Positions 53,185 through 59,684 of a stretch of DNA of 64,000 bases are shown in pieces (the stretch's first letter is position 1; each line of letters begins with the position of its first letter). The stretch is from Microcaldota archaeon. Its GTDB lineage: Archaea; Micrarchaeota; Micrarchaeia; Micrarchaeales; Micrarchaeaceae. The notes under the pieces were generated by a model that saw only the letters and a program-made list of their open reading frames with translations, was not told where the DNA came from and did not search any database. The stretch is from positions 1 to 64,000 of the forward strand of contig JAJYYB010000018.1 in the NCBI GenBank assembly GCA_021801355.1, written 5' to 3'. The translations under genes and the position numbers were made by a program.

Positions 53185-53360
53185 AGCGATATGCGATATG
53201 CCTTTTGGCAAATTATATCTGTGGCTGCCTTCTATCGGACTGTATGCAAACGTCCTATGATAATCGCTTTTAAATGCGTATCAGATGCGGTAACCGCACC
53301 CAGGCCCGGCGGCGGATCTGGCGCAGGAATTCCCGCTTAATAGCGTGAGTGGACTTGGCT

Positions 53361-53399
53361 GGGATCGCACCCGCGACCTTCCGCTTGCAAAGCGGACGC
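53361..53399 (-). repeat. Attachment site copy 1 (tRNA-Ala 3' part)
   Basis: A 39-bp core is identical to 55144-55182 and to 59624-59662 inside tRNA-Ala, including the anticodon loop and T arm. The flank to the left is degenerate (GTGGACTTGGCT for GTGGACTCTGCG), suggesting the oldest site. Confidence 0.85.
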
Positions 53400-53458
53400 T
53401 GGTGTAGCTTTTTCGTCTAGCTCTTGTTTCATTTTACCACAGTGTATCTTGTTTTCAA

Positions 53459-53502
53459 AGACGCGAACATCTGTGTCTTCGCACACAGATAATAGCGCGT
53501 CT
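53459..53502. repeat. Nested inverted repeat, copy 1
   Basis: AGACGCG and CGCGTCT enclose ATCTGTGT-CTTCGC-ACACAGAT, giving an 8-bp perfect stem with a 6-base loop inside a 7-bp outer stem. It is conserved exactly in copy 2 at 55243-55286 although flanking bases vary. Confidence 0.8.
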
Positions 53503-53520
53503 AGAGATATGAATGGATAA

Positions 53521-53547
53521 GGTGCGGTTCCAAGCTGTATTCGCACC
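53521..53547. promoter_or_regulatory. GGTGCG...CGCACC inverted repeat
   Basis: This 27-bp motif recurs at 55057-55083 and 55305-55330, always beside intN or an attachment site, followed by CAG. It may be an integrase arm or repressor site. Further right, CCTTTCCAAAAAGG inverted repeats at 53565-53578 and 53608-53620 recur at 55349-55362. Confidence 0.5.
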
Positions 53548-53667
53548 CAGTGTTTTCGGTCAAGCCTTTCCAAAAAGGTTTGCCGCGCCCAGAGTTTTTG
53601 ATAAAACCTTTCCAAAAAGATTTACCACGATTGGACTGTATTATACTCATCATCATTAAAGTGTTCC

Positions 53668-54951: not shown

Positions 54952-55070
54952 GATAGTATTAAAAGGATAAAATATTTAAATATTGTCCTTTTTAAAAGGA
55001 AATTATTTGAACTCCGCAATCGCTGTTATGGAGCGTTTAGAGATATGAAAGGAGCTGGTGCGGTTCCAAG

Positions 55071-55182
55071 CTGTATTCGCACCCAGACCTGCTTACTGTT
55101 CTGCCGCCGATATTCCTGCTTTTAGAAGAAAGTAGACTCTGCGGGGATCGCACCCGCGACCTTCCGCTTGCAAAGCGGACGC
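55071..55182 (-). repeat. Attachment site copy 2
   Basis: These 112 bp align without gaps to 59551-59662 with about six mismatches. They include the 3' part of tRNA-Ala and about 60 bp downstream of it. To the left lies a partial repeat of the intN flank (55032-55086). Confidence 0.9.
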
Positions 55183-55345
55183 GGGTGCCTAACTTCTCAT
55201 CTAGCATTTGTTCCATTTTAGCACCGTAGATTTTGTTTTCGAAGACGCGAACATCTGTGTCTTCGCACACAGATAATAGCGCGTCTAGAAATATGAAGGA
55301 ATACGGTGCGGTTCTAGCTGTATTCGCACCCAGTGTTTTCGTCAA
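55183..55345 (-). pseudogene. Integrase N-terminal fragment 2 (intN)
   Basis: The frame from 55345 encodes ARTAPYSFIFLDALLSV, CEDTDVRVFENKIYG and AKMEQMLDEKLGTRVRFASG, then continues through the attachment site as RVRSPQSLLSSKSRNIGG. The same frame begins the catalytic part at 59633 (MRSPQSPLSSKSRNIGG). Joining the sites in the excised circle would restore one continuous integrase. The exact start codon is uncertain. Confidence 0.7.
55243..55286. repeat. Nested inverted repeat, copy 2
   Basis: Same nested stem as 53459-53502: AGACGCG-AAC-ATCTGTGT-CTTCGC-ACACAGAT-AATAG-CGCGTCT. It lies inside the intN coding frame. Both copies are identical over the arms. Confidence 0.8.
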
Positions 55346-55652
55346 ACATTTCCAAAAAGGTTTGTCGCACCCAGAGTTTTTGGTAAAGCTTTTCGTAAAA
55401 AGGTTTCATAGGTTGCACATGGCCCTATGCTACGGCAGCTCGTGCGCGCCCAACATCACTTACGAGGTCTAACGTGCGCAAATGCACTGCAAGTCTCCAC
55501 CAGGCATTACTTTAATAAATCCTCAATCATTCGCCTTTCCTCAGCAGTTATACCATATATTTTATATACAAAATTATCAATGGCATTTTCAACTTCAACT
55601 ATTTCGTTTTCTATCTGACTACTATTCGGAAGTACTGTTAAAGAAAAGTTGC

Positions 55653-56195
55653 CTACTTACCATACACGTTTATTTTACCGCCAGTGTGATGGATCTCTCT
55701 TATACCTCCTGGTGGTCTTAAAGGATTTCCATTGCAATCATGTGTTTCTGGGACCCAATGCCTAGCACAAAAGTATCCATCGCAATATCTACATTGGTGA
55801 ACGTCTGCCCAATTATTATATTTCTCATCACAATAGGAGCAAAAATTATCTGTATGATATTTTTTAAACTCTAACTGCTTCTTCTTAAGATACGCTTTTT
55901 TCTCAGATTTCTTCATTTTAGCGAAATCTTCAATATTGAGTTTTTCGTATGGAACTGAATATTTATTTTCTAATTTCTCTATTTGCGTATAATCTTTTTC
56001 CATGGTGGAACATTCAGAATTATGCTTTTCTGGTGCCATATGTCTAGAACAAAAATATTTATTGCAGAACTTGCAAACGTGTTTATCTGTATTATCAAGA
56101 TACCTTTTAGCGCATCTTGCACAATAATTTTTATTGTTAATATGTTTGTGTATAAAGTCTAGTATATCTTTACTTATACTGCTTATAACGCCCAT
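55653..56195 (-). CDS. Double AN1-type zinc-finger protein
   Basis: Two similar zinc fingers occur: CARCAKRYLDNTDKHVCKFC followed by CSRHMAPEKHNSEC, and CSYCDEKYNNWADVHQCRYC followed by CARHWVPETHDC. Cys/His spacing matches AN1 fingers. A helical charged spacer (KMKKSEKKAYLKKKQLEFKK) separates them. AN1 proteins link to stress or protein turnover in eukaryotes and occur in archaeal viruses and plasmids. The gene is AT-rich and carried by the element. ATG 56195 chosen; 180 aa. Confidence 0.85.
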   Translation of the reverse strand: MGVISSISKDILDFIHKHINNKNYCARCAKRYLDNTDKHVCKFCNKYFCSRHMAPEKHNSECSTMEKDYTQIEKLENKYSVPYEKLNIEDFAKMKKSEKKAYLKKKQLEFKKYHTDNFCSYCDEKYNNWADVHQCRYCDGYFCARHWVPETHDCNGNPLRPPGGIREIHHTGGKINVYGK

Positions 56196-56264
56196 ATTAT
56201 TAATTTTAAGCCGGTGTTTTTATTGCTATCTTTCTAGGACACCCTAGCCCTTAAGCCACGCCAG

Positions 56265-56644
56265 CACGTTCATCCTTCGGATTCACGTGGGCTAACGCGC
56301 CAACACGCTGCAAGCCTAGCCATCTAGGCAGTGTAAGGAACCTCAAGGAGCCGATTTTGCCCCCACCCAAAATCGGCTCTGGGCTTATGCAGGCTAAGCC
56401 CAAAACCGGCGTTTTCTTGGGCAAACCTTCTTTCTGAAAAGAAGGTTGGTCGCACGCAGCAGCGAGCAGCCCCGGAGGCTGCGAAGCTGCGCAGGGCGAC
56501 TTTAACCGATTTCTTTAACCGAAATCGTATATTAGCTGTGTAAAGTCGCTCGACGACAGATTTTGGGTCATTTCCGCCTTGTCGTCGGAGCGTGAACTTT
56601 AACCGATTTTCGGGCTTTGGTTAAAGCCCGTTTTGGTTAAAGTT
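56265..56644. repeat. Dense palindromic region of the element (possible origin or structured RNA)
   Basis: The 511-bp gene-free stretch 56196-56707 holds at least nine perfect inverted repeats: 56265-56289 (CACGT..ATCC/GGAT..ACGTG), 56314-56329, 56348-56379 (12-bp arms GAGCCGATTTTG), 56381-56401, 56424-56447 (10-bp arms AACCTTCTTT), 56456-56490 (nested GCAGC and GCAGCC), 56496-56549 (9-bp arms around CGATTTC/GAAATCG), 56551-56587, and 56595-56644 (AACTTTAACC arms around CGGGCTTT-GGTT-AAAGCCCG). CTTTAACCGA recurs three times. No coding frame explains it. Confidence 0.8.
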
Positions 56645-56707
56645 GAAAGCAGGAAAAGTGGCTTATAAAGATGGGATGCGAAATACCGCTTATGGGCCGG
56701 GGAAGCG

Positions 56708-57367
56708 TTGCGTTCGCCCGTCTGGTCGGCTGGCTTGTCGGTAGCCAACCTGCTATTCCTGCACCTGCCGCTTAGCGGCTTCATAGTGCTAGGTTTCATA
56801 CTGCTCTGGGGCTTTGCCGTTGTGCTCATATTCCTGACCTTCATTTACGTGGTGGCTGCCTTCATCTACTCGCTCTTCAGGAGCTACCTGTTCAACTTCA
56901 CCATGTTCACGCTCCTACTGGTAACTCAGTACCTAGCTCCCATGCGGCTAAATCAGGTCATATACCCGCTTTACGTGCTCGGCCTTCTGGCCCTGTTTCT
57001 GGGCCTGGGAGGCTTTGAGGCTTGGTGGGAGCACCACGCCGGCGAGCGCGACAGGAGGCTATTCGAGGAATGGCAAGCACAGGAGAGGGAAAGACGGAAA
57101 AGGCAGCAGGAAGCTAAGAGGGAAAGGAAGAAGCAGCAGGGAGAGGAACCATACCGTAGGCACGATACGGCATGGTGCTATTGGGTGCTAGGGATACCCG
57201 AAACGGCCGCCTTGCAGGAGGTAAAGCAAGCTTACCGCAGGATGGTGCTAAGATACCACCCGGACGTGAACAAGAGCAGGGATGCAGAGGCTAGGATGAA
57301 GGAGATAAACGAGGCGTATGAGAGACTAACTGAGGCATTATATAAGACTGAAAAGAGGAATAACTAA
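56708..57367 (+). CDS. Membrane-anchored J-domain protein
   Basis: Three to four N-terminal hydrophobic segments (about residues 10-105) precede a charged helix (RRLFEEWQAQERERRKRQQE) and a C-terminal J domain (YWVLGIPETAALQEVKQAYRR, LRYHPDVNKS, MKEINEAYERL). HPD is intact. It would recruit a DnaK-like or other ATPase to the membrane. TTG 56708 is the likely start; the exact start is uncertain. It lies on the mobile element beside the palindromic region. Confidence 0.88.
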   Translation: MRSPVWSAGLSVANLLFLHLPLSGFIVLGFILLWGFAVVLIFLTFIYVVAAFIYSLFRSYLFNFTMFTLLLVTQYLAPMRLNQVIYPLYVLGLLALFLGLGGFEAWWEHHAGERDRRLFEEWQAQERERRKRQQEAKRERKKQQGEEPYRRHDTAWCYWVLGIPETAALQEVKQAYRRMVLRYHPDVNKSRDAEARMKEINEAYERLTEALYKTEKRNN

Positions 57368-57418
57368 CGAACCAATCAAGAAATTATAAATATTCGGTAA
57401 GGAGAACTATATAAAGCT

Positions 57419-58606
57419 ATGAAAAAGATACGAAGGTGCAGGGAAATGGCCAAGAATTATGGCAGGAGCATTGGCTTGGAAATGAAGGATTTCAAATATA
57501 TTGATAGCACTGTGGACATCAAGAGCGAAGATAGCGAATGGGGCAACATAAAGACTGGATTATATGAACCACCAGAATACATTGTAAAACTGCTTCTTTT
57601 AGGGGTCATTAAACTCGTTAACTTGGGCCCGTATACCAATAAAGTATATTGGCGAACCCAGTTCAGCTATAGAGGACATTACTTTTTAATCCGTGACTAC
57701 AAGTTTGGCTCGTGGACTATAGAAGGAGAACACAAAAATCCAGAGGCCATAAAGTTAGCTTCAGAGATTGAGAGCAAGATAGGAAAGGCGTCTTTGATGC
57801 TTGACAAAATTTTGAAGCCTGCTATTAACGATCAAATAAAAAAAGATGACTTCTACATTCATAACGAATATTATACCTTGTATAATATCTTCAGATTTTA
57901 TCGCAACAAGATAAAAGTAGTATTAAAAGAAAGAGATAAGATGAAGGCGCCGGTGTGGGATTCTGGCAGTGCACGTGAATTCGGCAGTGCGCTTACAGAA
58001 TATATGAATAAACACGGAAGATATGGAAGTGAAATATCAAATTATTCATTCGCCCTTATCGCGGCATTTTTTTCTCTACAAGAATTTCTTTTTAATGTGT
58101 TCTATGCATTCCAGAATGAGGGAAAGGGGCTTCTTCCATTCATAAAAAAATATGGGTGGAAAGAAAAATTTAAAGATGTATACGGCCCCGTATATAAAGG
58201 AGAAATTAAGCAGCTTCATGATGGACTGCTACAGTTGCGAAATGACTTTCGGAATCCTCTATCGCATGGACTAACAAACGAGACGCGGGTGCTTGTTGTC
58301 TTGGGGGGCACGTTAGTACCCCTATCAATCGAATATCTTTCAAAAGGACCACAATACGATATTCTATTAATTAAAGATGAGGAAGCAAAGCAAATAATTG
58401 ACAGATTTGATAGCATGCTAAAGTATATTTCTAAAACCGACCCGTTCCGTTTCTATATGTTGTACTTAAGAGGCGGATTTACGATTCCTGCAACACAAAA
58501 AGAACTTGCCAAAATAAAGGCGGAAATGACTGATTACAAGAATTTCAAAATGTATGTTGTACGAAGAGCTGAATACGAAAGTGATCGCATGAATCGTGAT
58601 ATTTAA
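57419..58606 (+). CDS. HEPN-like protein on the mobile element
   Basis: The 395-residue product has RNDFRNPLSHG near residue 280, giving the R-x4-H motif (RNPLSH) of HEPN RNases, preceded by helical text typical of HEPN (ALIAAFFSLQEFLFNVFYAF). The remaining parts are not recognised. It could be a toxin or defence RNase protecting the element or its host, or an inactive relative. It is AT-rich. ATG 57419 follows ACTATATAAAGC; ATG 57446 is an alternative. Confidence 0.6.
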   Translation: MKKIRRCREMAKNYGRSIGLEMKDFKYIDSTVDIKSEDSEWGNIKTGLYEPPEYIVKLLLLGVIKLVNLGPYTNKVYWRTQFSYRGHYFLIRDYKFGSWTIEGEHKNPEAIKLASEIESKIGKASLMLDKILKPAINDQIKKDDFYIHNEYYTLYNIFRFYRNKIKVVLKERDKMKAPVWDSGSAREFGSALTEYMNKHGRYGSEISNYSFALIAAFFSLQEFLFNVFYAFQNEGKGLLPFIKKYGWKEKFKDVYGPVYKGEIKQLHDGLLQLRNDFRNPLSHGLTNETRVLVVLGGTLVPLSIEYLSKGPQYDILLIKDEEAKQIIDRFDSMLKYISKTDPFRFYMLYLRGGFTIPATQKELAKIKAEMTDYKNFKMYVVRRAEYESDRMNRDI

Positions 58607-58694
58607 GGAAAACTTAACCTTCTAACGCAAAAACAATAATATAGAGTTGTAGATTGCGCATTGTTTTATCTCGCCATTATTTACGTCGGATTTT

Positions 58695-59633
58695 TTAACT
58701 GATTCTAGAAAGTCTGGCCTTTAAAGTTATGGCTTGATTTACGCTAAATGCGCCGTCTATGTTTTCGTATAGTTGCTTCTTGTTTGTGTTTATGTAGGCC
58801 ATTGTTACGCTGGGCTGTAGGTGCCGGGCGAACTTGCTAGTTAAGAAGACGTTGCCGTTGGTCTGCTCTGCAAAATGCTTTATTGCGTAATGCCGTAAGC
58901 TGTGAGTTGTTAATCTGTGTAGCTTTCTTGAGGATTTTTTCGTTGATGATTCGTCGCTCATGTCATACACCTCATCTAAGCCAGCTTTGTTTATGAATTC
59001 AGTGAACTGGTTGCGCACGTAACCCTCATCCAAGTAAGGCTCCAAGGTGCGGCCTTTGCCCTTTTCTTTGAAGAAAAGGTAGCCAGCCGCGCCTTCTATC
59101 GCCTTCTTGTTTGTGCTGATATAATCCAAAGTCTCCTTAAAGAGCGGAGCGGGAATCAGCAGGGTATCCAGAGTCATAGCTTTCTCTGTCTTTACCACTA
59201 ATTCCCTGGTCTCGAACTTTATGTCCTTTATGTTTATCCTTCTGGCCTCGCCCAGTCTTAAACCTAACTTGGCTTGGTACGAGAAGAGCAAGTGGAACTT
59301 CGGATTCTTTATGACCCTGAAGAAAGCCTGCACCTCTTGCTCGCTGAAGCCCTTGTTTATCGAGCCGTATTTCGGCACACGGTTCTTCTTGAAGCGCTTC
59401 ACGAACTGGGCGGTGACCTGCTTTCTTATTTCCACCAGGTAATGCTTTGGCAGCATTGGTAGTGTGGTCTCTAGGCTCGCTTTTAATGCTTTGTATGCGG
59501 TTTTTGCATCCGAACCGCACGCAAAGGCTTGTGGAATATCGGCTCCTCCACTGTAACCGCACCCAGACCCGCTTACAGTTCTGCCCCCGATATTCCTGCT
59601 TTTAGAAGAAAGTGGACTCTGCGGGGATCGCAC
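58695..59633 (-). CDS. int: SSV-type tyrosine integrase, catalytic part (intC)
   Basis: Catalytic residues are R126 (LGLRLGE), H244 and R247 (THSLRHYA), H271 (ARHLQPS) and Y280 (TMAYINTN), counted from GTG 59633. The first 27 codons are the tRNA-Ala 3' part and its flank, so the frame enters from the attachment site; the true N-terminal piece is at 55183-55345. In the integrated state this part may be untranslated or start internally (for example near SDAKTAYKAL). It catalyses site-specific recombination at tRNA-Ala. Confidence 0.92.
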   Translation of the reverse strand: MRSPQSPLSSKSRNIGGRTVSGSGCGYSGGADIPQAFACGSDAKTAYKALKASLETTLPMLPKHYLVEIRKQVTAQFVKRFKKNRVPKYGSINKGFSEQEVQAFFRVIKNPKFHLLFSYQAKLGLRLGEARRINIKDIKFETRELVVKTEKAMTLDTLLIPAPLFKETLDYISTNKKAIEGAAGYLFFKEKGKGRTLEPYLDEGYVRNQFTEFINKAGLDEVYDMSDESSTKKSSRKLHRLTTHSLRHYAIKHFAEQTNGNVFLTSKFARHLQPSVTMAYINTNKKQLYENIDGAFSVNQAITLKARLSRIS

Positions 59634-59662
59634 CCGCGACCTTCCGCTTGCAAAGCGGACGC
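59551..59662 (-). repeat. Attachment site copy 3 (intact tRNA side)
   Basis: Partner of 55071-55182 (112 bp, about six mismatches). It covers the tRNA-Ala sequence from the anticodon arm to the 3' end and 60 bp beyond, which is also the 5' end of the intC frame. Confidence 0.9.
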
Positions 59663-59684
59663 TCTACTACTGAGCCAAGAGCCC
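59613..59684 (-). tRNA. tRNA-Ala (anticodon UGC)
   Basis: On the minus strand acceptor GGGCTCT pairs with AGAGTCC and the third pair is G3-U70, the alanine identity element. Anticodon arm TCCGC-TTTGCAA-GCGGA gives UGC. T arm GCGGGTGCGATCCCCGC is canonical. Discriminator A; no encoded CCA. The 3' half is the integration target of the adjacent element. Confidence 0.97.

Follow-up and report, generated by a model that had tools for sequence, protein, structure and literature searches.

In the 64,000-nt stretch of DNA analysed here (the window), the palindrome-rich segment between two cargo genes of an integrated element is, with a probability of about one half, an origin-type module that acts in cis as DNA, would be served in trans and belongs to a very small element integrated in a tRNA gene. 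The module is real and conserved and matches no described family. Its origin function and the factor acting in trans are what we infer; replication, transfer and packaging are not distinguishable from sequence.

The genome measures 1.07 Mb, and the window corresponds to its contig C12. An earlier note had described the segment as gene-free and as holding at least nine perfect inverted repeats with arms of 6-12 bp, several of them nested, together with a repeated sequence, and each of these observations held up. Between 56314 and 56644 (331 bp), a search for perfect inverted repeats (arms 6-12 bp, loops 3-30) gave exactly nine that do not overlap, as against a mean of 3.0 and a maximum of 8 in 100 dinucleotide shuffles of the region. 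Repeats with arms of at least 8 bp numbered six, compared with 0.26 expected from the shuffles (maximum 2). The region is the densest palindrome spot of the 64 kb, in which 512-bp intervals outside the region held at most three repeats with such arms. Some of the repeats are nested, that at 56611-56630 sitting within that at 56595-56644. The sequence CTTTAACCGA occurs exactly three times, and GGTTAAAG, an inverted partial copy of it, occurs twice (Table 1). Both strands, as RNA and as DNA, fold far more strongly than shuffles, with z-scores of -7.2 (+) and -5.8 (-) for RNA and of -9.1 (+) and -7.7 (-) for DNA. The region is bounded by the flanking genes at 56195 and 56708, and the structure seen in relatives reaches slightly further upstream in the window, to ~56240. 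It holds no credible gene: the sole overlapping ORF of at least 60 aa (56599-56844, minus strand) is without support. According to Rfam searches, no family matches the module, and a loose threshold yielded a tRNA fragment and a chance match only.

Table 1. Positions in the window of the integrated element, its genes and the parts of the palindrome-rich module.
Feature	Position	Strand	Remarks
Whole integrated element, ~4.48 kb	55135..59662		A copy of the tRNA-Ala 3' part at each end
att copies	55135..55182; 59615..59662		48 bp identical, 4480 bp apart
tRNA fragment	55133..55197		
tRNA-Ala gene	59612..59684		
Cargo gene, two AN1/FYVE-like zinc fingers	55653..56195	-	Starts at the outer edge of the module
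Palindrome-rich cis module, whole	56240..56645	+	Strand gives the orientation shared with relatives (toward the integrase), not a transcript
Hairpin H1 (CACGT...ACGTG)	56265..56289		Stem sequence differs among elements
Hairpin Hb (G-NNN-CAAC-NNN-C)	56297..56308		CAAC loop conserved; stem changes are compensatory
Hairpin H3 (GCCTAG-CCAT-CTAGGC)	56314..56329		Perfect inverted repeat
Hairpin HG, loop CCCCCACC	56348..56379		12-bp perfect stem; loop in either orientation in relatives
8-bp perfect hairpin TGGGCTTA/TAAGCCCA	56380..56402		From inverted-repeat search
10-bp perfect hairpin AACCTTCTTT/AAAGAAGGTT	56424..56447		From inverted-repeat search
Hairpin H4	56455..56485		Outer stem, asymmetric internal loop, covarying inner stem
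Word pair	56500..56522	+	CTTTAACCGA at 56500 and 56513, 13 bp apart
Hairpin CGACGACA/TGTCGTCG	56551..56587		Between the two word groups
Integrase-side word group	56595..56644		CTTTAACCGA (+) at 56597, GGTTAAAG inverted at 56619 and 56635; nested hairpins
Cargo gene, membrane protein with J-domain	56708..57367	+	
Cargo gene, 395-aa orphan	57419..58606	+	In 1 of 118 genomes
Tyrosine-recombinase integrase	58695..59633	-	Pfam Phage_integrase, 2e-8; PHROG integrase; overlaps the tRNA-Ala gene

The element lies in a tRNA-Ala gene and carries an integrase and three cargo genes. The 395-aa orphan is without Pfam, PHROG or PDB match, and its AlphaFold model (pLDDT 35) is unusable. The other two cargo genes have counterparts elsewhere. 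A relative of the zinc-finger gene, at 1498-2034 of locus L231, is likewise divergent from a module, but one with a different word (see below); a second J-domain membrane protein, very like that of the window, is encoded at 7093-7650 of L025 (G000:C2) and adjoins a tRNA-Asp and decayed integrase pieces. Past the second att copy, 28 aa of an integrase N-terminus survive as a remnant at 55070-55153 (86% identical), and the minus-strand ORFs at 55037-55345 and 53337-53615 have a repeated segment, FLDALLSVCEDTDVRVFENKI..., in common. The remnant and the shared segment are left over from a previous insertion at this tRNA.

Related elements are frequent in the same genome and its relatives. A DNA search of the genome itself gave module copies in contigs C16, C20 and C3, and a fifth was seen in C21; each of these four further copies adjoins an integrase at a tRNA (Leu, Glu, Gln and Gln). 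The integrase has seven strong relatives in the genome, itself included, and relatives at E <= 1e-30 in 62 of 119 related genomes. We assembled 65 micrarchaeal integrase loci, 60 being neighbourhoods from relatives and five from the genome itself. At about 32 of them, perfect repeat arms made up 20% or more of a 300-bp stretch, as compared with 0-7% in shuffles. The module usually abuts the 3' end of the integrase gene, although cargo may intervene as in the window, and in every copy compared by sequence it is read toward the integrase. Five related integrases (L079, L080, L083, L086 and L089) seem to be without a module. A further locus, L024 (G000:C7, 6028-8327), lacks a palindrome module; it holds a pair of related, divergent integrases placed back to back, of which one is interrupted by an in-frame stop, and adjoins a DNA methylase/restriction-like gene set. 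A scan of GTDB genomes with the core of the commonest module type gave ~22 true loci, which by record label belong to Micrarchaeota except for four Marsarchaeota and one 'bacterium'; in ~8 of them there was no integrase within the stretch examined. In G002, G094, G103, G108 and other relatives, many integrase contigs stop 0.1-3 kb beyond the integrase, as if palindromes or multiple copies had broken the assembly.

The integrase, present at 65 of 65 loci, is the only widely common gene. Chance antisense frames aside, the next families (a winged-helix/RelE-like pair, mercury reductase with ArsR, and methylases) occur at no more than seven loci, in a count that leaves aside one 39-locus cluster unseparated from overlapping frames and in which two-thirds of the gene content was assessed only at the level of families. 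Mercury-reductase-like and ArsR-like genes are the common cargo of L058, L081, L102, L103, L105 and L233. At L176, L183, L231, L023 and others, a small winged-helix-like gene and a second small gene lie between the word array and the integrase or tRNA; the two look like a toxin-antitoxin pair. Element size, taken from att repeats of at least 20 bp, was 3.3-5.9 kb with a median of 4.3 kb (n=14), a small and uniform size that would suit a virus satellite, although sizes above ~5.5 kb are invisible in most loci and larger elements would be missed.

In the orientation of the window, the hairpins follow the order H1, Hb, H3, HG and H4, and then comes the word array. Across modules, the loop of H3 is GCAACC or similar and that of HG holds a run of G or C; the loop of H4 is a GNA-type triloop in most relatives and CCGGA in the window. 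The earlier note had proposed comparing the stems among homologues. We used 26 distinct Hb sequences, chosen by loop and context rather than by pairing. In this set, 95.2% of cells were paired as against 62.4% after shuffling, and the covariation score was 0.84, compared with 0.17 in shuffles and at most 0.11 when the partners were slid. The inner stem of H4 likewise varies by compensation, in a set partly chosen by pairing. Homologues exist and their stems are kept by compensatory change, so the objection that the structure lacks both falls. C(GNA)G triloops, which form very stable DNA hairpins, were found in 12 distinct hairpins, as compared with 0.15 expected in shuffles; since nearly all are the same hairpin, H4, the excess is only supporting evidence. 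A selfish or neutral palindromic repeat family, spreading within islands and of no function for the element, might also be multi-copy, modular, shuffled and sometimes without an integrase, as the module is. Such a family would be a highly improbable source of a module whose order, orientation and spacing are fixed and whose stems show compensatory change over many lineages.

Selected stems may reflect constraint on DNA or on RNA, and a selected RNA should tolerate G.U but not A.C. Mismatches in Hb comprised two G.T and three A.C; those in the inner stem of H4 comprised two of each. By contrast, consensus pairs in two real RNAs of the same clade gave 106 G.T to 6 A.C (RNase P RNA) and 281 G.T to 35 A.C (SRP RNA). 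Consensus pairs were used because a single-sequence stem finder proved a weak test, the RNase P and SRP helices being too short for it. Consensus folds of 12 module members gave 35:18 (+) and 24:15 (-), with no strand preference. Moreover, some hairpins are inverted. On one and the same stem, the HG loop can face either way (GCCCCACTCC in L100, GAGTGGGGGC in L178), with further flips between L102 and L208 and between L073 and L070, whose integrases are 93.6% identical. In L109 (4539-4759), H4 is its own reverse complement while the neighbouring parts are in the usual orientation. Such flips are DNA events and would completely alter an RNA loop. The equal rarity of G.T and A.C, together with the inverted hairpins, indicates a constraint on DNA rather than RNA. 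We lean strongly toward this reading of the alignments, as a lean rather than proof given the small counts and a module that was not randomly sampled.

The main rival to an origin-type DNA module is a structured ncRNA, either large and ornate or a regulator, that the elements would transcribe across the module and whose complementary words would form helices or kissing loops. Strong folding in a gene-free segment, compensatory stems and the mobile-element context would suit such an RNA, as would the CAAC-type loops, which are conserved on one strand (loops were collected in that orientation only). Several word copies are mutually complementary, but it would be odd for an RNA to make all its pairings through one same word. 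The lack of an Rfam match, the mismatch counts and the inverted hairpins also speak against it; promoter spacing is not consistent, and no T-run at a 3' end is seen by eye. We consider an ncRNA unlikely. The earlier note had offered an origin, a structured ncRNA or a recombination or packaging site; an origin-type cis module in DNA is favoured, and the ncRNA is disfavoured by the missing G.U preference and the inverted hairpins.

The second component of the module is an array of four to six copies of an element-specific word of 9-10 bp. Two direct copies are followed by an intervening hairpin and then by one direct and two inverted copies. The spacing (12-13, ~84, 22 and 18 bp) is constant, though the word itself changes between elements: CTTTAACCGA in the window and elsewhere CTCTACATG, CTTGGAACGA, CTTTATCTG, CTTCATCTG, ACTAAAGACC and others. 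Seven loci (L011, L068, L101, L106, L084, L100 and L067) have two tandem arrays with two words. Arrays of the window word and of CTTTATCTG were found in integrase elements only; two apparent word arrays outside such elements were both chance matches inside coding sequence. The array searches found no helper bearing the same words. The idea that the words are displayed in hairpin loops, as kissing loops, was rejected, since only elements of the CTCTACATG group keep a stem around the word.

The words do not follow the integrase tree, and we therefore rejected them as integrase binding sites. L066, L067 and L011 have integrases that are 85-92% identical and different words, and the word pair CTTGGAAC+CTTTATCT is common to elements whose integrases are only 55-57% identical. 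On the integrase tree, this pair requires as many changes as shuffled labels. Words overall are more clustered on the tree than chance, as expected from recent common descent. These comparisons show that the module is exchanged between elements independently of the integrase. This bears on a further reading, in which the integrase itself uses the module for recombination or regulation (as accessory arm sites, for control of excision or as an attC-like folded DNA substrate). The module usually comes directly after the integrase gene, whose product is the only common protein, and folded DNA hairpins can serve as substrates of a tyrosine recombinase, as integron attC sites demonstrate (PMC6393395). 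Nevertheless, we consider an integrase site very unlikely: besides the discordance of words and integrases, 2 kb of cargo separates module and integrase in the window, and integration, unlike that at attC, uses tRNA repeats at the opposite end of the integrase gene from the usual module side.

The array also has features of an iteron-type theta origin. Direct repeats at fixed spacing flank an AT-rich core, TATAATATTGATGTGCAGT, an arrangement that is clear in the CTCTACATG group. A theta origin of the excised circle, with an AT-rich core and iteron-like words and fired by a host initiator (Orc1/Cdc6 or other), would make an element-encoded initiator unnecessary. However, three or more word types were counted within a single genome, and one type spans two host families, which makes it improbable that any single host protein reads them. 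The words are decoupled from the host as well as from the integrase, and no candidate binder emerged. Iteron origins, in addition, do not need hairpin conservation. A theta origin is, in our estimate, quite unlikely.

An origin-type module served in trans calls for a partner protein, and we searched for candidates. No replication protein was recognised by Pfam or PHROG among the genes of the five delimited elements of the genome. Rep_1 had no match in 119 genomes, the control being likewise without match. The MobA-type relaxase PF03432 had none in the 119 relatives, the control matching in one genome; in this PF03432 search, no relaxase helper that would read the site, as in iOriT-type elements, was found. 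Viral contigs searched with the integrase protein gave nothing real, and IMG/VR searched with the module core pattern gave only nine chance matches. Zot matches in relatives were marginal stretches in frames of 330-850 aa. L058 contains a geminivirus-like nonanucleotide, TAATATTAC, to which we gave no weight: the usual form in relatives is TAATATTGATG, and no HUH Rep turned up. Hairpins kept in structure, with separate element-specific words of variable sequence at fixed spacing, are the layout of a rolling-circle dso; the element-encoded cognate Rep of a dso is missing from the five delimited elements. As no cognate protein was found, membership in the rolling-circle, iteron or oriT families is not established.

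Base-paired, strand-neutral DNA, a swapped specificity array and an integrase without an initiator together fit an origin-type site served in trans. By the mechanism that we propose, the integrase would excise the element as a circle, and an initiator not encoded by the element would bind the words. The bound initiator might then open or nick the hairpin-forming DNA, starting replication, transfer or packaging, much as in rolling-circle origins, where a bind site is paired with a nick hairpin. Each word type would then suit its own initiator, and an element with two tandem arrays would be open to two of them. As a broader and doubtful proposal, Micrarchaeota may carry minimal islands of a class not described before, which would depend on helpers, resemble natural phagemids or iOriT elements in kind, and combine an integrase, a single-strand-folding DNA origin or transfer module with swappable words, and cargo. 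If this were true, the module would be bait for whichever archaeal initiator, relaxase or virus carries DNA from one of these symbionts to another.

Gene exchange in ultra-small DPANN archaea is largely unknown, and a conserved cis site with element-specific words offers a direct handle on it. The module DNA should fetch the protein that acts on it, and the words predict which elements have a common helper. The elements also carry traits, including mercury reductase, toxin-antitoxin genes and ParA.

The module has likenesses among known systems. The intergenic region of filamentous phages, also used in phagemids, is a gene-free hairpin chain of ~500 nt; it houses the packaging signal along with the origins of both strands, and it functions in trans. 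The micrarchaeal module is likewise a gene-free hairpin chain, a likeness of build; unlike the phage and phagemid case, no inovirus-like helper was found. Among archaeal systems, passages on the genomic islands of Mia14 describe an XerD-family integrase, ParA, toxin-antitoxin and hypothetical cargo (PMC5498576). The elements resemble what is described there in being integrase-bearing islands in a micrarchaeon, and those passages do not describe a palindrome module. Charybdis elements, of ~4.6 kb, lack hallmark genes, and one clade integrates into archaeal genomes (PMC12324425); they carry a conserved structural gene set, whereas the micrarchaeal elements have only the integrase in common.

The origin of SNJ2, a betapleolipovirus with Rep-Arvir, requires a conserved hairpin and a bind site that is not conserved (PMC13107129). 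That of pRN1 depends on a stem-loop, and its replication proteins can be supplied in trans (PMC3869888). As in both, the module consists of gene-free DNA hairpins beside a bind site of non-conserved sequence, and, like SNJ2, the element integrates via a tyrosine integrase. The module is longer than these origins, with about nine hairpins and five or six word copies, and SNJ2 and pRN1 encode an initiator beside the origin whereas none was recognised in the micrarchaeal elements. Bacterial hitcher elements, namely iOriT-type integrative elements and phage satellites, carry only a cis site; according to the review that covers them, archaeal relaxases are not known (PMC11389934). Hitchers are bacterial and have known helpers, whereas here the host is archaeal, the helper is not recognised and an oriT or packaging role is putative only. 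In gene content, the micrarchaeal elements match the hitchers: each consists of an integrase, a cis module and cargo, without transfer or replication proteins of its own.
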